Source: Candidatus Caenarcanales bacterium (lineage in GTDB: Bacteria > Cyanobacteriota > Vampirovibrionia > LMEP-6097). From it: a stretch of 41,863 bases of DNA. Below the pieces are notes generated by a model, which had not been told where the DNA came from, made no database searches, and was given only the letters and a program-made list of their open reading frames with translations. Made by a program: the position numbers and the translations under genes. This document shows, one piece after another, positions 1,871 through 41,733 of the stretch (the first letter of the stretch is position 1; every line of letters begins with the position of its first letter). Location of the stretch: positions 1 to 41,863 of the forward strand of contig CANHDW010000006.1 of assembly GCA_947459525.1 (NCBI GenBank), in the 5' to 3' direction.

Positions 1871-2446
1871 TTAAAACCCCAAAACCTGCAAACAAGACAA
1901 AGCCAGCTCTTTACCCTTATCATCTTGAGTAACACTCGCCCTCGCTAAAGCCTGCTCTTCTGTATTTACCGTAAGAACCCCATTAATAATCGGCTTAGAA
2001 TAATCCAGCATTACATCCATAATGCCTCTGGCTGATTCGTTCGCCACTATCTCAAAATGATAAGTTTCACCACGAATAATAGTGGCAAAGCAAATAATTG
2101 CATGATAACCAGTAAAACTATCATGAGACTGTTCCCAAACTCCAATTTCTGCGTTTTCGTCTAAATCTTCATCACCCTCTAAATCCTCGTCATCCTCTAA
2201 ATCCTTCTCAAAAAGCTTCTGGCAGGCATAAGGCATCTCGAAAGCACCAGGAGTGTAATAGCTATCTATATTTTCAGCTCTAATACCAAATTTAATTAAA
2301 GTCTCTTTCGCTGAATCTGCCATTTCTTGGTTATAGCCTATGTTCCAGTTAGCGATAACTAGAGCTATTCTGATATTCTCAAGATAAAGGTTTTCAAGGA
2401 TTTCTTCTAATTTAAATTCTGGTCTTGAGTGTCGCATATGATGCAT
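1871..2446 (-). CDS. ribH: 6,7-dimethyl-8-ribityllumazine synthase carrying an acidic in-frame insertion
   Basis: RIALVIANWN, TPGAFEMP, AIICFATIIRGETYHFEIVANESARGIMD and INGVLTVNTEEQALARA match RibH motifs; LEDDEDLEGDEDLDENAEIGVWEQSHDS interrupts the normal TPGAFE...YDAVI connection. Confidence 0.88.
   Translation of the reverse strand: MHHMRHSRPEFKLEEILENLYLENIRIALVIANWNIGYNQEMADSAKETLIKFGIRAENIDSYYTPGAFEMPYACQKLFEKDLEDDEDLEGDEDLDENAEIGVWEQSHDSFTGYHAIICFATIIRGETYHFEIVANESARGIMDVMLDYSKPIINGVLTVNTEEQALARASVTQDDKGKELALSCLQVLGF
2125..2209 (-). repeat. Dispersed-repeat copy inside ribH, in frame, with adjoining 18-bp tandem repeats
   Basis: Reverse complement contains GACGAAAACGCAGAAATTGGAGTTTGGGAACAGTCTC, matching the core of the intergenic copies at 2497-2617 and 36258-36378. 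Confidence 0.85.
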
Positions 2447-2460
2447 TCTAGCTTAGTCCG

Positions 2461-2617
2461 CGATGAAAAACTTCATTTTTCATCGTTTCCTTAAATGGGC
2501 ATGTAGCCGAACGAACAAGTTCAAGGCTGAGGAGGACGAATGACCGCAGTGTACCAAGCGTACATGAGGATCATGAGGACGACGAAAACGCAGAAATTGG
2601 AGTTCGGGAACATGCCC
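2461..2617 (+). repeat. Full-length dispersed repeat copy A: hairpin I (2461-2485) plus unit with inverted arms (2497-2617)
   Basis: CGATGAAAAA-CTTCA-TTTTTCATCG perfect hairpin; arms GGGCATGTagCCGAAC / GTTCGGgaACATGCCC; internal sequence nearly identical to copy B. Confidence 0.9.
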
Positions 2618-9623: not shown

Positions 9624-10544
9624 CTATGCTAATGCCTTTGATAAATAATTTTTATTAATCTTTAATAGCTCAGTAGCAGAATCAAAGTCCAAACCCTTTT
9701 TAAGATAAAGAATAGCCTGCTTCACTCTATTATGAGACAGTGTCAAAGCCTCTTCAGCTAAAGGTTTATCAGAGCCTGTGATTAAACTTATTAATCTAAC
9801 AGCTCTTTCCTTAAGCTTTTTATTACTGACCTTAACATCTATCATTAGATTACCAAAAGTCTTACCAAGCTTAACCATAACCGAGGTACTTATAATATTA
9901 AGTACTATCTTTTGTGAAGTTCCAGCTTTAAGCCTAGTACTACCTGAAAGTATCTCCGGTCCAGTATCTAGGAAAATAGAGTAATCTGCATATTTAATAA
10001 TCTCCGCGGCACGGTTATTAGTAATCACCACAGTCTTAGCACCTTTCTCTTTTGCGGCTTTCAAAGCTCCTATAACATAAGCTGCTCCACCACTAGCTGA
10101 AATACCGATAACCACATCGAGGCACTGTTGCCTAACTCCAACTTCTGCGTTTTCGCTACTCTTTAAATTCATTTTCGCTAAAACATCAGCATAACCAGCA
10201 GCTTCATCATCTTCAGCGCCTTCTACTGCGTACTGGATAGCTCTTTCACCGCCAGCGATAATAGCTTTTACTAAATCCGGCTCAGTAGAAAAAGTAGGCG
10301 GACATTCGACTGCATCTAAAACACCAAGACGCCCACTAGTACCAGCTCCTACATAAACAAGTGAGCCACCCTGCCTTAAAGATTCACTAACGACTTCGAT
10401 GACCACTCCGATATCTTCTTTAACATCAGCCAGGGCTTTTAAAATCTGCTGGTGATCATCCACAAAAAGCTGCACTAAATCGGAAGAACTCAACTGATCT
10501 AAATTTTCAGAAAGTGGGTTTATCGATTCTGTTATAGGAAGCAT
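9624..10544 (-). CDS. murQ: N-acetylmuramic acid 6-phosphate etherase with in-frame repeat insertion
   Basis: YVGAGTSGRLGVLDAVECPPTF, AVEGAEDDEAAGYADV, ISASGGAAYVIGAL, STRLKAGTSQKIVLN. KSSENAEVGVRQQC precedes DVVIG. Start taken at MLPITESINP. Confidence 0.93.
   Translation of the reverse strand: MLPITESINPLSENLDQLSSSDLVQLFVDDHQQILKALADVKEDIGVVIEVVSESLRQGGSLVYVGAGTSGRLGVLDAVECPPTFSTEPDLVKAIIAGGERAIQYAVEGAEDDEAAGYADVLAKMNLKSSENAEVGVRQQCLDVVIGISASGGAAYVIGALKAAKEKGAKTVVITNNRAAEIIKYADYSIFLDTGPEILSGSTRLKAGTSQKIVLNIISTSVMVKLGKTFGNLMIDVKVSNKKLKERAVRLISLITGSDKPLAEEALTLSHNRVKQAILYLKKGLDFDSATELLKINKNYLSKALA
10121..10158 (-). repeat. Dispersed-repeat copy inside murQ, in frame
   Basis: GGCACTGTTGCCTAACTCCAACTTCTGCGTTTTCGCTA; encodes SENAEVGVRQQC on the minus strand. 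Confidence 0.8.
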
Positions 10545-11578
10545 TATTGAATATTCTCCTGATAAAGCAAGCATGATACTTGATGATTTTGCTCAATAAG
10601 TCCAGATTCTCTATCGTCAACAACAGTATCGTTATGAAACAAGGATACTGAAATAGGTTTCAGCAACAATGGCGTATTAAGCTCACAAGCCTCAAAACAC
10701 TCAGGGCATCTAGTACGAAAAGCACAACCACTAGGTATTTTACTTGCACTAGGTATTTCACCATACAAAAAAGTACGCTCTCTATCACGCTTAGTCGGGT
10801 CTGGGACTGGAGCTGAACTTAAAAGAGCTTTAGTATAAGGGTGCAAAGGATTACGAAAGAGATCATCTTTAGCTGCTATCTCTACTATTTTCCCCAGATA
10901 CATGACAGCAACTCTATCTGCGATAAATTTAGCCACGGCTAAATCATGAGTAATAAAAAGAAAACTAATACCCAGTTCCCGCTTGAGTTTCAGCATTAAA
11001 TTCAATATAGTCCACTGAATCGATACATCCAAGGCGCTCACAGCTTCATCTGCAATAATCAATTTAGGATTACAAGCTATCGCTCTAGCTATGCAGACTC
11101 GCTGATTCTGTCCACCTGAACACTGATGTGGATACTTAGAAGCCAATTCAGCATCGAGTTCCACAAGCTGCATAAGCTCAAATACTCTTTCTTTAATATT
11201 CTTTTCTTTATTTACCCGAAGAGGCTCTGCAATGCTGTCATAAATCTTAAAGCGTGGGTCTAAGCTGCTAAAAGGGTTTTGAAAAATCATCTGTAAACTT
11301 TTCCTTCTATCTAAAAGCTTAGATCCTTGAAGATGTAAAAAATCTTCACCTTCAAAATTAATCTCACCCGAATCCGGCTCTGTGAGACGAGTTATAAGCC
11401 TTGCTAAAGTAGATTTACCGCAGCCAGATTCGCCCACTAAAACAAGTATTTCTCCTGTCTCAATAGATAAATCCACTCCCCTCACGACTTGAAGCAGCTC
11501 TTTAGCCCTCAGCCCCCATCCCCCATCTTTTGAGATGGGGAAGGATTTAGATAAATTTTTAACCTCTAATAAAGCCAC
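10544..11578 (-). CDS. Oligopeptide/dipeptide ABC transporter ATP-binding protein (OppF/DppF family)
   Basis: GESGCGKSTLARLI Walker A, CSGGQNQRVCIARAIA signature, LIIADEAVSALD, C-terminal CAFRTRCPECFEAC. Confidence 0.92.
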   Translation of the reverse strand: MALLEVKNLSKSFPISKDGGWGLRAKELLQVVRGVDLSIETGEILVLVGESGCGKSTLARLITRLTEPDSGEINFEGEDFLHLQGSKLLDRRKSLQMIFQNPFSSLDPRFKIYDSIAEPLRVNKEKNIKERVFELMQLVELDAELASKYPHQCSGGQNQRVCIARAIACNPKLIIADEAVSALDVSIQWTILNLMLKLKRELGISFLFITHDLAVAKFIADRVAVMYLGKIVEIAAKDDLFRNPLHPYTKALLSSAPVPDPTKRDRERTFLYGEIPSASKIPSGCAFRTRCPECFEACELNTPLLLKPISVSLFHNDTVVDDRESGLIEQNHQVSCLLYQENIQ

Positions 11579-29043: not shown

Positions 29044-30207
29044 TTATTGGCGTGTAACTGTTTTAGAAACTGGTTCCTTGGAAATCATCCCCCAGAAAGC
29101 AGAAATAGTTTCATTAGCACCACAGAATAGTTGAGCAAGACTATCTTGGACTGGCGGAGGAACATATCTATTCAATAATTCACCAACAGAGACAAGTGTA
29201 TATGGGAATCCAACTTTAAAGTCATTACTTTTCATTACCTCTGCTAGTGCTTTCTCTGCCCCATACTTTTCTCTAGCTTCCTTATAAGCTTTATACATTA
29301 GCCATAAATCACCACCCACGCCGCTTAAATTTCTAACAAACCCTATAGACTTAGCTTTATTAGTACTAACTTCATCTCCAATAATACTTGAGCCGATTAG
29401 GGTAGAAGAAATGAGTCCAGTAGGGACTATAATTTTTAAAATATTCTCAATAGGGTCATCACCTTTTTTCAATTTACTAAATGAATCTCCTATACTATTT
29501 TTAAGCTCACGAAGAAAAAAATTAATATTCTCCCCTAGGGATTTAAAATTCTGAGCATCATATTTTTCCTTGCCTATAGCTAATTTCGCCATTTGTACAC
29601 CAGGAAAGAATCCAGAAGAAACACTGAAATTAGCTGGCTTGGACTGAAATAACTTAGCGACTAAAGAATAAATTCTCGAAACACCATCCATAAAATCATT
29701 CTTCACGAGGGAATTTATACCAGCTAAAGCATTCGGTAAAACAGTAATCGTCTTTGAATACCAAAGCGAGGCATTATAAGATAGTTTTTTTATCGCTGGA
29801 GGTAAGTTAGAACCTTCGACAAAACTATCTAAAAAATGTAATGCCGCGCCAATAGAAGAAATGATTACAGGTCTATAGCCCTTATTCAATCCATCTATCG
29901 CAGGTTTAAAAATTTTTTGAATAGTCTTAAAAAATTGATTTTCAGAAACTGCTACTTCTTTTTTATTCTCTAAATTTAGTTCATTATTAAGGGACTGTTG
30001 CGGAACTCCAATTTCGGCAACTGTGCCATTAAGGGTCTGCTGATCCTTAACCTCTGCCTGAGCTAAATTCTTCGCAAAAAGCTTAGAAGATGACGGAGAA
30101 ACGTCTTCTATTTTCTTTTCAGCAGCAGGCTTTATCTCAGGCTCAATAATGCCTAAAGAAGAATTTATACTTTGCTCTGGAGAGAGCGTATTTGTAATTA
30201 ATGCCAT
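29044..30207 (-). CDS. Lineage-specific hypothetical protein, paralog family member 1 (probable membrane-associated helical protein)
   Basis: 387 aa; WYSKTITVLPNALAGINSLVKNDFMDGVSRI and AKSIGFVRNLSGVGGDLWLM are shared with the 30442-31992 product. Confidence 0.65.
   Translation of the reverse strand: MALITNTLSPEQSINSSLGIIEPEIKPAAEKKIEDVSPSSSKLFAKNLAQAEVKDQQTLNGTVAEIGVPQQSLNNELNLENKKEVAVSENQFFKTIQKIFKPAIDGLNKGYRPVIISSIGAALHFLDSFVEGSNLPPAIKKLSYNASLWYSKTITVLPNALAGINSLVKNDFMDGVSRIYSLVAKLFQSKPANFSVSSGFFPGVQMAKLAIGKEKYDAQNFKSLGENINFFLRELKNSIGDSFSKLKKGDDPIENILKIIVPTGLISSTLIGSSIIGDEVSTNKAKSIGFVRNLSGVGGDLWLMYKAYKEAREKYGAEKALAEVMKSNDFKVGFPYTLVSVGELLNRYVPPPVQDSLAQLFCGANETISAFWGMISKEPVSKTVTRQ
29989..30018 (-). 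repeat. Partial dispersed-repeat copy inside paralog 1, in frame
   Basis: AAGGGACTGTTGCGGAACTCCAATTTCGGC; encodes AEIGVPQQSL on the minus strand. Confidence 0.7.
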
Positions 30208-31998: not shown

Positions 31999-33096
31999 AT
32001 GAATTTAAGCCTTGCCACGAAGCATAATCACATACTGAAATCTGATATTAAAAATCGGGTCGAAAATTCCACTTCATTAGAGCAGCAAAATCCTCATACA
32101 TCAATAGCACATGAGAATCACGAGAATAAGGAAAACGCAGAAAATGATATTACGCATCAATCTCTAGCTTCTAATCTGCATGCTCCTCAGCAGCCTCTTA
32201 ATCCACTTCTTCAGTTTTACCAAAACAACTCAGAATACCTAAATAAACTTGCGATGTCTGGTTCTTATGTAGGTATAGGCTTACACGGTCTAGCATCAGT
32301 GGCACCATTCTTAAAATCCCTTCCTAAGCCAGTTAGAGAGATGCCCCACAAATTAGCCACCTTCTATTCACGCTACCTGAGTGGCATTCCCATGGTAATA
32401 TTCTCTATCCCTCAATTTATCGCCAAAGATACTATTAAAGCTATCGGTCAAATTAGTGCTGCTGTCTCATTTCCTTTTATTAAAACCGTCGAAAATATGC
32501 CCGTAGGCTCTAGCCTTTTCTGTGGGATAAAAACTGCGATAGAAGCTATAGAAGAATATAAAGGTCCTAAGGTTAGCAGGAAATCCGATTCTTTATTACA
32601 TCAGATAGAAGAATTTACCTCTAATTACGGACGAATGTGGAAAGATTCTTTATCTAAACTATTATCAAACGAAAGTTCTCTTGAAGAAAAATTTAGACAT
32701 TTCTGTAATATCTCATTCTTACCTGGTTACTCTGGAGCTCAAGCCTTAGGAATGCTCTTTTGTAGAGAGCGTATCTCAGATAAAAATAGCTCTAAGATAA
32801 TAGACGGGATTGCAAGAGGAACTCGAACTGAACGTGGTATTCTAGGAGTCGTTACTGATATATTCTTGCTTGGTTCTAAAATAGCTGCATCTCGAACTGT
32901 TGGTATAACTTTTGCTGGTAGCAGCCTTCTTTCCTTAGCCACGCCTTGGGTAGATAAAATATTCAGTAAGCATCCAAAAGAAACTCAAGAGAAAATTCTT
33001 AATACTCTCGGTCAAACCTGCAAGGCTTTAGATGAATTGGGTAACGTACTCTGGTCTAAAATACCGAAAGAATCCAATTTAGCAGCAGTTTCTTAA
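31999..33096 (+). CDS. Lineage-specific hypothetical protein, paralog family member 3
   Basis: 365 aa; FYSRYLSGIPMVIFSIPQFIAKDTIKAIGQI aligns with the WYSK/WWSK motif; lies 7 nt downstream of paralog 2. Confidence 0.62.
   Translation: MNLSLATKHNHILKSDIKNRVENSTSLEQQNPHTSIAHENHENKENAENDITHQSLASNLHAPQQPLNPLLQFYQNNSEYLNKLAMSGSYVGIGLHGLASVAPFLKSLPKPVREMPHKLATFYSRYLSGIPMVIFSIPQFIAKDTIKAIGQISAAVSFPFIKTVENMPVGSSLFCGIKTAIEAIEEYKGPKVSRKSDSLLHQIEEFTSNYGRMWKDSLSKLLSNESSLEEKFRHFCNISFLPGYSGAQALGMLFCRERISDKNSSKIIDGIARGTRTERGILGVVTDIFLLGSKIAASRTVGITFAGSSLLSLATPWVDKIFSKHPKETQEKILNTLGQTCKALDELGNVLWSKIPKESNLAAVS
32110..32147 (+). repeat. Dispersed-repeat copy inside paralog 3, in frame
   Basis: CATGAGAATCACGAGAATAAGGAAAACGCAGAAAATG vs CATGAGGATCATGAGGACGACGAAAACGCAGAAATTG; encodes HENHENKENAEN. 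Confidence 0.7.
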
Positions 33097-34637: not shown

Positions 34638-35436
34638 TATCTTCTAAAAAGACTTGGTGAGCTCCTCTTGCTTTCATATGCTTTATAAAACTATTTCTGA
34701 GTATAGAAGCTGATATTTTCTTTTCTATTCCAACTACTGCAGCCTTAGCCTGAATGCTGCGATAAACCTCTCTTGCACTAATACTGAAAAGGCGATTTAC
34801 TGATTTTAAATTATTATCATTAATGTATTTTTCTAATAAAAGTTTTACCGAGTCTATCATCGGCACTAATCTTGATTTAGAGGTAGAAGAACGATTTATA
34901 AAAATAAGCTCCTCCGTAAAAGAAATATCCTCTATCGTAAGCGTTAAAAGCTCATTTACCCTTAAACCACAGGAATACAGTAATTCTAAAAGTAGCGCAG
35001 TGCTCCCATCGTTAAAATGTTCGCAATCTTCAATTTCTGCGTTTTCGCCCGCCTCATTTTTGACTTTACTTAAAAGTAAATCTACTTCCTCTTCACTTAA
35101 AATTTCAGCTTTTTTATTGCGGTATTGCGTATCTCTAACTATTTGAGTAAAAGGGTCACGTGAGACTAAAGAATTTTCTTTCAGCCAATTCCACATTTTA
35201 TGCACTGCCGTTAATTTTCTATTAACAGCAGCCGTACTAGCACCAGATTTCCTTATTTCCTGAGAAAAATATTCTAAATTATCAGCACTCAAATCTATTA
35301 TCTTGAAATTTTCTCCAAGATTGGCTCTTACAAAGTTAGAAAAATCAATTAAATCTCTTTTATAAAGCCTGAGCGTATTGTAGCTAAGTCCACTAAAATT
35401 TTCTAAATAATCAAGAAACTCTACAACGACCTGCAT
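34603..35436 (-). CDS. XerC/XerD-like tyrosine recombinase, catalytically degenerate and C-terminally truncated
   Basis: VEFLDYLENFSGLSYNTLRLYKRDLIDFSNF, LLLELLYSCGLRVNELLTL, SKSRLVPM, SASILRNSFIKHMKARGAHQVFLEDIMGQ; ends before the Tyr position. Confidence 0.8.
   Translation of the reverse strand: MQVVVEFLDYLENFSGLSYNTLRLYKRDLIDFSNFVRANLGENFKIIDLSADNLEYFSQEIRKSGASTAAVNRKLTAVHKMWNWLKENSLVSRDPFTQIVRDTQYRNKKAEILSEEEVDLLLSKVKNEAGENAEIEDCEHFNDGSTALLLELLYSCGLRVNELLTLTIEDISFTEELIFINRSSTSKSRLVPMIDSVKLLLEKYINDNNLKSVNRLFSISAREVYRSIQAKAAVVGIEKKISASILRNSFIKHMKARGAHQVFLEDIMGQKNFARID
35019..35056 (-). repeat. Dispersed-repeat copy inside the xerC-like gene, in frame
   Basis: Reverse complement ATGAGGCGGGCGAAAACGCAGAAATTGAAGATTGCGAAC; GAAAACGCAGAAATTGAAGATTGCGA is identical to copy B. 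Confidence 0.85.
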
Positions 35437-36217: not shown

Positions 36218-36380
36218 TTAAGTGATGAAAAACGAAATTTTTCATCACTTAATTAAAGGGACTGCTCACAAACGTACAAGTTCAAGGCTGAGGAGGACGA
36301 ATGACCGCAGTGTACTCGAAGTACATGAGGATCATGAGGACGACGAAAACGCAGAAATTGAAGATTGCGAGCAGTCCCTT
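36214..36380 (+). repeat. Full-length dispersed repeat copy B: hairpin I (36214-36256) plus unit with inverted arms (36256-36380)
   Basis: 19-bp perfect stem TTAATTAAGTGATGAAAAA-CGAAA-TTTTTCATCACTTAATTAA; arms AAGGGACTGCTCaCAA / TTGcGAGCAGTCCCTT. Confidence 0.92.
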
Positions 36381-37490: not shown

Positions 37491-40469
37491 ATGCAAACAG
37501 AAAAAATATCATCTGAAGACTACAAAAAAGCCATAAAGGAATCTATAGACCTGCCTATTACAGAATTTCCTATGCGCGGAAATGGACCAATCCGTGAACC
37601 AGAGTTTCAAAAACTCTGGGAAGAATTAGATATTTACAAGCAGGGATTAAGGATTAGGGAAGATGAAGGTGCGAAACGCTTCATATTACATGATGGACCT
37701 CCGTATTTAAGCTCCGATAAAATCCACATAGGTACTGCCTTAAATAAAATCCTTAAAGATATAATTTGCAGATTTAGATACCAGCAGGGTTTTAAAGTAC
37801 CTTTCATTCCAGGTTATGATTCTCATGGCTTACCAATTGAGAATGCTGTAGTTAAAGAAATTAAAGGCGGTAGAAATGCTGTCTCCGTAGTTGAGTTACG
37901 TGAAAAATGTAAAGAATTTGCTTTAAAAAACCTGAAAGGACAGGAAACTAAATTTAAACGCCTCGGTATAAATGCTGACTGGGAAAACCCTTATATAACT
38001 TTAGACCCTAAGTATGAAGCTGAACAGATAAAACTATTTAGTGAAATGGCTGAAAAAGGCTATATCTACCGAGGTCTAAAATGTGTTCACTGGAGTTATG
38101 GCTGCCAGACAGCTTTAGCAGATGCTGAAATAGAATATGAAGAACATACTTCTGATTCTATATATGTAAGATTTCAGATCAGTGATTTATCTATCCAAGA
38201 AAGCACTCAGAAAGAAAATCATAACTCTCTTGGTAAATTAAAAACAGAACTCTCTAATGCTTCCTTTGTGATCTGGACTACCACTCCATGGACCATGCCT
38301 GCGAATTTAGCTATCTGCTTAAACGCTGATATAGACTACTGCATAGTAAATTCAAGCGAATTTGGGAAATTAATAATAGCGAAAGATCTTTTCGAAGATT
38401 TTAAAACTAAAACAGAGTTAACAGATTTAGCGATAATTACAGAAGGTCTTAAAGGCTCTGACCTAGAGGGCATTAAAACTAAACACCCTCTGTATAATCG
38501 TGAATCACCTGTAATACTTGGCGATCACGTTAGCACTGAAACTGGTACAGGCTGCGTTCATACTGCACCAGGTCACGGACAAGAGGATTTCGAAGTCGGT
38601 AAAAAATATAATCTAGGTGTACTCTGTCCAGTAGATCCTAAAGGTGCTTTCACTAAAGAAGCTGGTGAAGTTAGAACAGAGAATGATGAAATAGTTTCTT
38701 TAGAAGGCTTACACATCGCGAAGGAAGCTAACCCTACTATTATTTCTGCTCTGAAAGCCGCTACAGCATTAATTAAGCACAGTAAATTTAGACATAGTTA
38801 CCCTTATTGCTGGCGCTCTAAAACTCCACTATTGTTTAGAGCTACTGAGCAGTGGTTTGCGAGTATAGATAGTTTTAGAGAAAAGGCTCTTAGTGAGATA
38901 GATAAAGTTAAATGGTTCCCAGCTAGAGCTAGAAACCGCATCTACAGCATGGTAGAAGGTCGCGGTGACTGGTGTATATCTCGCCAGAGAACATGGGGAG
39001 TACCTATTCCTGTTTTTTATGATAAATCTATCATCGAAACTAACGGTAATTTTAAAGTGATTTTAGATTTTGAGATTATTGACCATGTAGCGAAAATATT
39101 TGCAGCAGAAGGTTCTTCTGCTTGGTACGCTAAAGAAATAATAGAACTCATTCCTAGTCACCTAACTAGCGGAGCTGATCCTAAATACAGAGTAGAAAAT
39201 CTTTCTAAAGAGACTGACACTATGGATGTCTGGTTTGATTCTGGTTCTAGCCATAGAAGCGTAGTTAATTTACGTGAAGAGCTCAAGTCTACTGAATTTG
39301 AGCCAGTAGATCTTTACCTAGAAGGTTCAGATCAGCATCGAGGCTGGTTTCAGTCGAGCTTACTTACATCAGTAGCCGTAAATGATATTAGACCATATAA
39401 TAACGTTCTCACCCATGGCTTCGTAATGGATGAACAGGGACGTAAAATGTCTAAATCTTTAGGTAACGTCGTAGACCCAGATGAAATCATGCAGGAATAC
39501 GGCGCTGACGTACTTAGACTATGGGTAGCAAGTGTAGATTACTCTGTAGACATTAAAGTCGGTAAAAATATATTTAAACAGCTAAGTGAAATTTATCGAA
39601 ACTTTAGAAACACGAGTAGGTTTATGCTTGGCAACCTCTTCGACTTTAACCCAGAAGAAGATTCAGTTCCTTACGCAGAATTACATGACTTAGATAAACT
39701 GATATTACATAAATTACAGGAATTAAGCTTAAAGATCACAGAAGCTTTTAATAGCTATGAATTCGTGAAATTTTATCAGCTTATACAGAATTTCTGTTCA
39801 GTAGATCTATCTGCTTTCTACTTCGACATCTGCAAAGATAGACTTTATACACATGGTAAAAAATCTGCATCACGCAGAGCTGCTCAGACAGTCATACTTG
39901 AGATATTGTCGAGTTTAAATCGTTTCTTTGTGCCGATACTACCGCATCTAGCAGAAGATGTGTATCAGCATACGCCAGAAAAAATTAAAGAATATTATGT
40001 AAATTCAGCGGGTTTAAATGGAAGTTTCTTTTCGCCTAAGCTTACTACATCTAAATCTATCCAGCTAAGTAACTGGCCTTTAGTAAATGATACTTACCTC
40101 AATCCAGAATTAGGTAAAAAATGGGAAGAGATCCTCTCCATCAGAGAGCTCGCTAATAAAGAACTAGAAGAGCTTAAGGCAAATAAAACAGTTAGTAAAT
40201 CACTTGAAGCTGAATTAATCATCGAATTACCTAAAGCTAAACTCAATGAATACGAAAGCATTCTTGAAGATATTAAAGCCTGCTTTATAGTCTCTGAGCT
40301 GATATTCAAGGAAGCTAATGAGATTAAAGTTACAGCCAAGCCTTTTGAGAATTCAGTAAAATGTGAACGCTGTTGGAAGCATTTTAAAACAGAAGAAGTA
40401 AATGCGGAGCATATCTGTCAAGTCTGTGATGCTGCTATACAAGGGCATCTTGACCTTAATAATGCTTAG
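37491..40469 (+). CDS. ileS: Isoleucyl-tRNA synthetase
   Basis: HDGPPYLSSDKIHIGTALNKILKD, PGYDSHGLPIE, GRGDWCISRQRTWGVPIPVFY, DEQGRKMSKSLGNVVDP, C-terminal zinc motif CERCWKHFKTEEVNAEHICQVC. Start taken at ATG 37491 rather than the track start at 37410. Confidence 0.96.
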   Translation: MQTEKISSEDYKKAIKESIDLPITEFPMRGNGPIREPEFQKLWEELDIYKQGLRIREDEGAKRFILHDGPPYLSSDKIHIGTALNKILKDIICRFRYQQGFKVPFIPGYDSHGLPIENAVVKEIKGGRNAVSVVELREKCKEFALKNLKGQETKFKRLGINADWENPYITLDPKYEAEQIKLFSEMAEKGYIYRGLKCVHWSYGCQTALADAEIEYEEHTSDSIYVRFQISDLSIQESTQKENHNSLGKLKTELSNASFVIWTTTPWTMPANLAICLNADIDYCIVNSSEFGKLIIAKDLFEDFKTKTELTDLAIITEGLKGSDLEGIKTKHPLYNRESPVILGDHVSTETGTGCVHTAPGHGQEDFEVGKKYNLGVLCPVDPKGAFTKEAGEVRTENDEIVSLEGLHIAKEANPTIISALKAATALIKHSKFRHSYPYCWRSKTPLLFRATEQWFASIDSFREKALSEIDKVKWFPARARNRIYSMVEGRGDWCISRQRTWGVPIPVFYDKSIIETNGNFKVILDFEIIDHVAKIFAAEGSSAWYAKEIIELIPSHLTSGADPKYRVENLSKETDTMDVWFDSGSSHRSVVNLREELKSTEFEPVDLYLEGSDQHRGWFQSSLLTSVAVNDIRPYNNVLTHGFVMDEQGRKMSKSLGNVVDPDEIMQEYGADVLRLWVASVDYSVDIKVGKNIFKQLSEIYRNFRNTSRFMLGNLFDFNPEEDSVPYAELHDLDKLILHKLQELSLKITEAFNSYEFVKFYQLIQNFCSVDLSAFYFDICKDRLYTHGKKSASRRAAQTVILEILSSLNRFFVPILPHLAEDVYQHTPEKIKEYYVNSAGLNGSFFSPKLTTSKSIQLSNWPLVNDTYLNPELGKKWEEILSIRELANKELEELKANKTVSKSLEAELIIELPKAKLNEYESILEDIKACFIVSELIFKEANEIKVTAKPFENSVKCERCWKHFKTEEVNAEHICQVCDAAIQGHLDLNNA

Positions 40470-40470
40470 T

Positions 40471-40520
40471 AGCACTGTTACGGAACTCCAATTTCTGCGT
40501 TTTCGCCCGCCTCATCATCC
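40471..40520 (-). repeat. Dispersed-repeat copy between ileS and purU
   Basis: AGCACTGTTACGGAACTCCAATTTCTGCGTTTTCGCCCGCCTCATCATCC; starts 1 nt after the ileS stop. Confidence 0.85.
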
Positions 40521-40522
40521 TT

Positions 40523-41395
40523 ATGAATAAATTCACACTACTTATAGACTGCTTCGACCAGAAAGGCATAGTAAATGCCGTCAGTGGCTTCATTTCAGAA
40601 AACAATGGAAATATCATAGACTCACAGCAGTATTCGTCTGGCTTAACTGCTCATTTTTTCATGCGAGTTTTAGTTGATGCAAGTGAGTTTAAGATAAAGA
40701 TAGAAGATTTAGATTCAGCCTTCAGCTCAATAGCAGCTAGGTTTTCAATGAATTTCAAATTTTCACACCATGCAAAAAAAATGGCTATCTTAGTTTCTAA
40801 ATATGATCACTGTCTCTACGACCTGCTTTTACGTAAACAGTACGGCGAGATAAATGTCGAGATACCAGTAATCATCAGTAATCATTTAGATCTTAAGCAT
40901 GTCGCTACCGCATTTAATATTCCTTTTGAATATTACCCCATAGAAAAACTTAGCGATAGCACCAATGCTAGCTACGACAGCAAACTCAATCAAGAAGCCC
41001 AAGTCATCAAGAGGCTAAAAGAACTTGAGATAGATTTTATCGCTCTTGCTCGTTACATGCAGATTCTCACGCCACAGTTTATAAATTCATATCCATATCG
41101 AATTATTAATGTACACCACGGCTTCTTGCCATCTTTCAAGGGTGCTAAACCCTATCACCAAGCCTATGACAAAGGTGTGAAAATTATCGGAGCTACTGCA
41201 CATTATGCGACTGAAGATTTAGATATGGGACCTATTATAGAACAGGGTGTTATAAACATAGATCATCGCGATACTGTTGAGGACTACATTTCTAAAGGTA
41301 GAGACATAGAGAAGCAGGTTCTAGCGAAAGCAATTCGCGCCCATGCGGAAGATAAGATTATAGTCCATGACGGAAAAACCTTAGTCTTCGACTAA
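40523..41395 (+). CDS. purU: Formyltetrahydrofolate deformylase
   Basis: DCFDQKGIVNAVSGFI ACT region; ARYMQILTPQFINSYPYRIINVHHGFLPSFKGAKPYHQAYDKGVKIIGATAHY. Confidence 0.93.
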   Translation: MNKFTLLIDCFDQKGIVNAVSGFISENNGNIIDSQQYSSGLTAHFFMRVLVDASEFKIKIEDLDSAFSSIAARFSMNFKFSHHAKKMAILVSKYDHCLYDLLLRKQYGEINVEIPVIISNHLDLKHVATAFNIPFEYYPIEKLSDSTNASYDSKLNQEAQVIKRLKELEIDFIALARYMQILTPQFINSYPYRIINVHHGFLPSFKGAKPYHQAYDKGVKIIGATAHYATEDLDMGPIIEQGVINIDHRDTVEDYISKGRDIEKQVLAKAIRAHAEDKIIVHDGKTLVFD

Positions 41396-41400
41396 GAGAG

Positions 41401-41440
41401 ACCACTGCACAACTCCATTTTCTGCGTTCTCGTCGTCCTC
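41401..41440 (-). repeat. Dispersed-repeat copy between purU and ABC-2 permease fragment
   Basis: ACCACTGCACAACTCCATTTTCTGCGTTCTCGTCGTCCTC; ends 1 nt before the permease stop codon. Confidence 0.75.
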
Positions 41441-41733
41441 TTAGGCCTTAAGCCTATAACCAGTTTTAAATATCCAACGAATCGCAAGTAAACTAATAAT
41501 AAGAAAAACTGAGATCATAATGCCACTTACACTCGGGCTTAAATCAGATTTACCATAAAAGCTCCATCTAAAGCCGTTTACAAGATAGATAACGGGGTTC
41601 AGCAAAGAGACTTTCTGCCAGAACTCTGGCAGCATATTTATTGAATAAAAACTACCACCTAAAAAGGTTAAAGGCGTTATTACTAATGATGGAAATATCT
41701 CTAATTGCTCAAAGCTTTCAGCAAGAATACCCT
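41441..41733 (-). pseudogene. C-terminal fragment of ABC-2 type transporter permease (YadH-like), 5' part missing
   Basis: GILAESFEQLEIFPSLVITPLTFLGGSFYSINMLPEFWQKVSLLNPVIYLVNGFRWSFYG...IFKTGYRLKA; upstream frame hits TAG at ~41731-41733 where similarity ends. Confidence 0.75.

Follow-up and report, generated by a model that had tools for sequence, protein, structure and literature searches.

The lumazine synthase RibH of a Candidatus Caenarcanales bacterium contains an acidic insert that very probably holds the remnant of a short, nonautonomous, MITE-like element whose sequence is compatible with coding and which, within genes, would be translated and tolerated. RibH is not special in this respect and is one among dozens of host genes. 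Our window is the complete stretch of 41,863 nucleotides analyzed here (contig CANHDW010000006.1), and its element copies are collected in Table 1. The genus, which we place in Caenarcaniphilales, belongs to what we take to be a nonphotosynthetic lineage related to cyanobacteria. For comparison, we used three congeners, the MAGs LMEP_6097 (Candidatus Melainabacteria), REEB446 (Cyanobacteria), and WB4_1_1465 (labelled Proteobacteria), and studied the copies in targeted stretches.

Table 1. RibH and the copies of the element in the window
Feature	Position	Strand	Evidence or remark
ribH, 6,7-dimethyl-8-ribityllumazine synthase	1871..2446	-	191 aa, intact ORF; Pfam and TIGRFAM profiles
Acidic insert, 28 aa, residues 83-110 of RibH	2117..2200	-	Alignment to 1rvv and family relatives
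Repeat-derived part of the RibH insert: element 3' end (GACGAAAACGCAGAAATTGGAGTTTGGGAACAGTCTC), read as DENAEIGVWEQS	2125..2161	-	33/37 nt identity
Full 121-bp element, taking up most of the spacer of miaB and ribH; antisense to the two genes	2497..2617	+	Covariance model, 137 bits
In-frame short copy (SENAEVGVRQQC) in murQ	10119..10155	-	Additional unit of 126 nt at this site in the G001 orthologue
Diverged in-frame copy (VAEIGVPQQSLN), ORF of unknown function	29985..30018	-	Direct repeat D3, ORF list
Diverged in-frame copy (HENHENKENAEND), ORF without Pfam match	32102..32146	+	Repeat search
In-frame short copy (EAGENAEIEDCEH), XerC/XerD-type tyrosine recombinase	35010..35061	-	Host by Pfam/NCBIfam
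Full 121-bp element, intergenic, flanked left and right by an exact target duplication of 5 bp (TTAAA)	36258..36378	+	Fold z
Short intergenic copy, ileS-purU spacer	40474..40525	-	Repeat and core search
Diverged intergenic element fragment	41401..41446	-	Direct repeat D1, 67%

The acidic insert of RibH

The host gene is well preserved. RibH matches the Pfam family DMRL_synthase (PF00885) at 4.8e-40 and 137 bits (cut-off 26.7) and TIGR00114 at 122.2 bits (curated cut-off 84.6). Lumazine synthases are recognized by a PGAFE motif, the RGxxxHF catalytic stretch, and a C-terminal R...K pair; in RibH, the motifs PGAFEMP, RGETYHFE, and RASVTQDDKGKE are all kept and align to the Bacillus subtilis enzyme (1rvv). 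The gene is present once in the genomes checked, where we found no second copy that could have replaced it, and the intact frame, single copy, and intact motifs rule out a pseudogene. These results uphold the core of the initial annotation, an in-frame repeat-derived peptide inside an otherwise intact, single-copy RibH.

The insert lies after helix alpha-2 and before the next strand. The alignment to 1rvv passes from query 81 and chain 69 to query 113 and chain 71, with about 31 residues standing where 1rvv has about one, and the peptide spanning the insert reads KDLEDDEDLEGDEDLDENAEIGVWEQSHDSFTGYHAIICFATIIR. All six family relatives compared (L005-L010) have an ordinary short loop at this junction, and among the sister sequences none from outside the repeat-bearing genus carries the insert. 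The alignments thus confirm the roughly 28 acidic residues first noted as extra to the short canonical loop, and move them by about 8 nt from the interval originally given (2125-2209, equal to residues 80-108) to that in Table 1. AlphaFold2 prediction of RibH with four congeners gave a mean pLDDT of 39 and was unusable, and it is for this reason homology that suggests an exposed position for the loop. The lumazine synthase of Magnaporthe grisea (1c41) likewise has a long natural insert at the same junction, across which the alignment with RibH runs uninterrupted; it differs in that it is a fungal enzyme and its insert is unrelated in sequence to that of RibH, with no known repeat source. The M. 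grisea enzyme is a homopentamer (PMC2935281). Since this pentamer has its own long insertion there, a long loop is compatible with a folded RibH, which presumably tolerates the added peptide and, by the same analogy, may possibly form a pentamer instead of a 60-mer.

Only a part of the insert derives from the repeat. The distal 37 nt agree at 33 positions with the full element of the miaB-ribH spacer (2497-2617), and the search for inverted repeats lists a match of 32 nt at 97% (I6). They code for no more than about 12-14 of the insert's 28 residues. The proposal that the inserted DNA matches the intergenic repeat therefore stands for these 37 nt and fails for the proximal acidic rest. The proximal residues (LEDDEDL...) are found in all four congeneric species, including G001 and G002, which are without the repeat core and whose ribH has 27 nt fewer in net than that of the home genome (G000), an in-frame difference. 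In G003, the match spans CATGAGGACGACG through the element 3' end at the same place. As the proximal acidic part is shared with congeners that lack the core, the insert is, judged from these alignments, composite, with a repeat remnant joined to an acidic loop that belongs to the genus.

Slippage in GAT/GAG/GAC-rich codons could in principle have produced the whole acidic stretch as ordinary lineage-specific loop growth, its likeness to the repeat being coincidental. The proximal part is of low complexity and common to all four species, two of them without the core, and slippage is the likely origin of residues 83-95. For residues 96-107, the alignments refute it: the distal part matches the element over its 37 nt, the match in G003 runs to the element 3' end at the same place, and chance matches to the element are near zero. 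The element match rules out a distal part made purely by slippage, and we consider the explanation improbable for the stretch taken as a whole.

The age of the RibH copy is a separate matter. The core is present in two of the four species, G000 and G003, and absent from G001 and G002. The ileS distances among the four are 5.5-8.3%, with G000 and G003 8.3% apart, and the four-species ileS tree, with a bootstrap of 45, does not settle the branching. Given this split and the weak tree, the insertion cannot be called recent, as had been suggested at first; an older single insertion that was later lost, or lineage sorting, is just as probable as recent acquisition. The RibH copy is without the element 5' end, like most short copies, and insertion boundaries are for this reason not provable copy by copy. 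The full element in the adjacent miaB-ribH spacer, which has positional counterparts in G001 and G002, could affect ribH expression.

Anatomy and reach of the element

The element from which the RibH remnant stems is a hairpin of 121 bp whose ends are complementary and which is flanked by target duplications of 5 bp. Its anatomy was determined from 74 candidate copies with paired ends, of which 14 showed exact target duplications of 5 bp against 0.32 expected; duplications of 4 bp or of at least 6 bp were not found. The candidate lengths have their mode at 121 (26 copies), and a nested form measures 202 (4 copies). With the duplicated target, these lengths become 121 + 5 = 126 and 202 + 5 = 207, both divisible by 3, and the reading frame is therefore never shifted; each insertion of the 121-bp form lengthens its target by 126 nt, equal to 42 codons. 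In the nested form, the hairpin loop is extended by a 78-nt insert, for which one orthologous site shows both presence and absence. Comparison of L038 with L165 placed this insert in the apical loop; its length is divisible by three, and it is open when read in the coding frame.

The fold is strongly conserved. The consensus contains 37 pairs with 98.3% of cells paired, and we counted 126 compensatory cells against 38 in shuffled data, a signal that was lost once partners were slid by one column. The fold z scores of the two full copies in the window are -4.8 (2498-2620, in the miaB-ribH spacer) and -4.95 (36259-36378). Mean column identity is 0.73 at the ends and 0.97 in the interior, the ends being still complementary. 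At the intergenic site 36258-36378, the G003 orthologue (L217) has the end type GAGACCCC...GGGGTCTC and G000 has GGGACTGC...GCAGTCCC; the ends appear to have been exchanged, or the site to have been hit twice. The open peptide of the preferred reading frame is hydrophilic and acidic, approximately RTSSRLRRTNDRSV-x-VHEDHEDDENAEIGV.

We searched for the core as a 15-mer with at most one mismatch and used the reversed 15-mer as a control. The home genome (a 54% complete MAG of 1.02 Mb) has at least 104 copies and the three congeners have 177, 208, and 245, while the reversed control gave 0 matches in all four; with 104 matches against none, chance is excluded for the core. A second genus has 19 copies, and most other genomes are at background. 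The covariance model matches in all six genera sampled of the family, the home genus included, and also in a second family, where three genomes have the element; the other genomes sampled of the class have no matches. In the phylum sample, only two genomes from outside the class match, G099 (8) and G070 (1), which may represent contamination or a wider family. The relatives of the element in other genera are divergent, and their full copies are again in frame. In-frame copies beyond the genus include those in CimA, citramalate synthase (L213), and MurC (L193), and a ZigA-type GTPase (L186) has one close to its N-terminus. On an IMG/VR 'viral' contig (L065:626-3928), a type I restriction gene for HsdR also has an in-frame copy; this contig may represent host DNA or else a mobile island. 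One further viral contig (L216) has a pattern match.

The fetched stretches, which cover a part of the genomes, contain no autonomous partner with these ends; an end-motif search for one returned a single spurious mixed pair and no transposon. The plasmid collection gave short chance matches only, and the variant hairpin pattern had no match in viral contigs. A literature search in a limited library for comparable repeats in Melainabacteria or Caenarcaniphilales found nothing relevant.

Copies within genes

Copies inside genes keep to one frame of the possible six. In the home genome, we distinguished 99 copies; 46 of them lie 40 codons or more within an open frame, and 42 of these 46 use the preferred frame. 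Across three genomes, it is used by 101 of the 105 copies deep in open frames and by 84 of the 88 in-gene copies without the 5' half. Under six equal frames, this gives P < 1e-59, a value to be read with the copies being kin by descent or tandem duplication and not fully independent. The hosts named by Pfam/NCBIfam are conserved enzymes, many of them normally essential, and include ArgRS, ValRS, PheRS beta, ArgJ, MurQ, the XerC/D-type recombinase, FolE2, signal peptidase, TsaE, HemD, a PyrK-type protein, TruA, LexA, AroQ, NadC, QueG, a DegT-type aminotransferase, MnmG, MurT, and TatC.

Orthologous sites differ between the species by multiples of 3: by 126 nt in murQ, where G000 and G002 have a short copy and G001 an extra unit, and likewise in phoX, by 78 nt for the nested form, and by 27-45 nt for short in-gene copies. 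Two pairs of loci, L099 with L172 and L098 with L154, have short and full copies at one site with a common 3' junction, from which it follows that the short copies come from loss of the 5' half. TruA contains tandem units in frame. A gene for an oligopeptide-transporter-type ATPase (window 10544-11578 compared with L142) has a C-terminal short and full in-frame unit in G002 but not in G000 or G001. In IleRS (window 37491-40466 compared with L178), an in-frame segment of 18 residues in the STQKENHNSLGKLKTELS region distinguishes G000 from G001 and is possibly another eroded insert.

These patterns can be arranged into a mechanism. The 121-bp hairpin, with a transposase presumably supplied in trans, inserts and duplicates 5 bp of target, adding 126 nt and keeping the frame. 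Insertions in the acidic open phase and orientation would be translated along with the gene and persist at sites that the protein can spare, probably for the most part in surface loops. They then erode by in-frame deletion, losing the 5' half and leaving short DENAEIGV cores, or alternatively grow as in-frame tandem units.

The peptide might instead have been recruited for a function, such as that of an acidic tag for solubility or interaction, and kept by selection. That it is acidic in all cases would agree with this, and so would the strong preference for one frame, which holds even for short copies although none of the six frames of their core contains a stop. The substitution patterns speak against it. 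In aligned orthologues, synonymous and nonsynonymous codon changes number 35 and 126 in the inserts versus 680 and 547 in the flanks (Fisher p ~3e-16), counts that are approximate, as pairs were taken both ways and a few rows were poorly aligned, but clear in direction: insert codons change the amino acid faster than their flanks and are under relaxed constraint. Departures from the consensus show a similar mix in coding (18 synonymous, 119 nonsynonymous) and noncoding copies (15 and 98), and copies have been gained and lost between congeners. Because coding and noncoding copies depart alike and the constraint on inserts is relaxed, tolerated ballast fits better than a conserved function, and we regard recruitment as unlikely.

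We consider it very unlikely that the element is removed from the RNA in the manner of an intron or skipped by the ribosome, leaving mature proteins without it. A full element does form a strong hairpin (z -4.95) and does occur within conserved enzymes. However, neither removal nor skipping requires an open frame, and the strict use of one frame in the three genomes (101 of 105) disfavors both; the hairpin is out of reach for most in-gene copies, whose 5' half is gone, and in the window no Rfam family, self-splicing intron or other known RNA, matched at the gathering threshold. Translation and retention of the insert in the mature protein is accordingly the reading we would expect from the conserved frame. 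An assembly or binning artefact is scarcely credible: the home MAG is 54% complete and in 48 contigs, some ending near repeats, but LMEP_6097, REEB446, and WB4_1_1465, from other projects, have the element and its in-frame copies, with synteny and high DNA identity.

Relation to known elements and significance

The nearest known counterparts appear, by analogy, to be the Rickettsia palindromic elements (RPE), reportedly described by Ogata et al. in 2000 and 2002. RPE and the Wolbachia palindromic elements are hairpins of ~100-150 bp with terminal inverted repeats, located between genes or in frame inside conserved genes, where they encode a family peptide, and different RPE groups can occupy orthologous sites (PMC2229807, PMC10969869, PMC3767692). 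Our element resembles them in its length of 121 bp and covarying ends and in its in-frame position in conserved, Pfam-named hosts, a likeness by description. What is new with respect to RPE is the unrelated phylum, the 5-bp target duplication (entered for RPE as '?' in Table 1 of PMC2229807), the geometry of exactly 126 added nt, the nested 78-nt insert, the in-frame tandem arrays, and a reversed conservation pattern. Enterobacterial ERIC/IRU, Yersinia YPAL/RU-2, and the 107-bp Neisseria Correia elements are also small and nonautonomous, with long hairpins and open frames fused in frame (PMC2229807); our element differs in lying often in core enzymes and in a single frame, and the window is without an Rfam match at the gathering threshold.

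The element resembles classical MITEs in being short, coding for no transposase, and having inverted ends and a fixed 5-bp target duplication (14/74). It departs from them in that the ends vary yet remain complementary and the interior is near-invariant (0.73 versus 0.97), the reverse of the textbook pattern, and in that no partner element was found in the stretches fetched from parts of the genomes. A bolder and so far doubtful proposal is that it forms a class of its own among the mobile DNA of bacteria, known by its fold and invariant interior rather than its end sequence, whose 126- and 207-nt geometry with one open frame makes genes a harmless landing zone. If true, element ends would drift freely as long as they are complementary; between species, they differ even at one genomic site.

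In-frame mobile repeats in core enzymes have so far been shown mainly as a peculiarity of Rickettsia and Wolbachia. Large-scale in-frame insertion is now seen in an unrelated lineage, with clear signs of transposition, in dozens of housekeeping enzymes and with four close species that differ in the presence and absence of copies. RibH offers a clean bench case, since a solved pentameric lumazine synthase has a natural long insert at the same site. The target duplications and the family-wide relatives make it testable how such elements move, why they use one frame, and how mobile DNA supplies new peptide to old enzymes.
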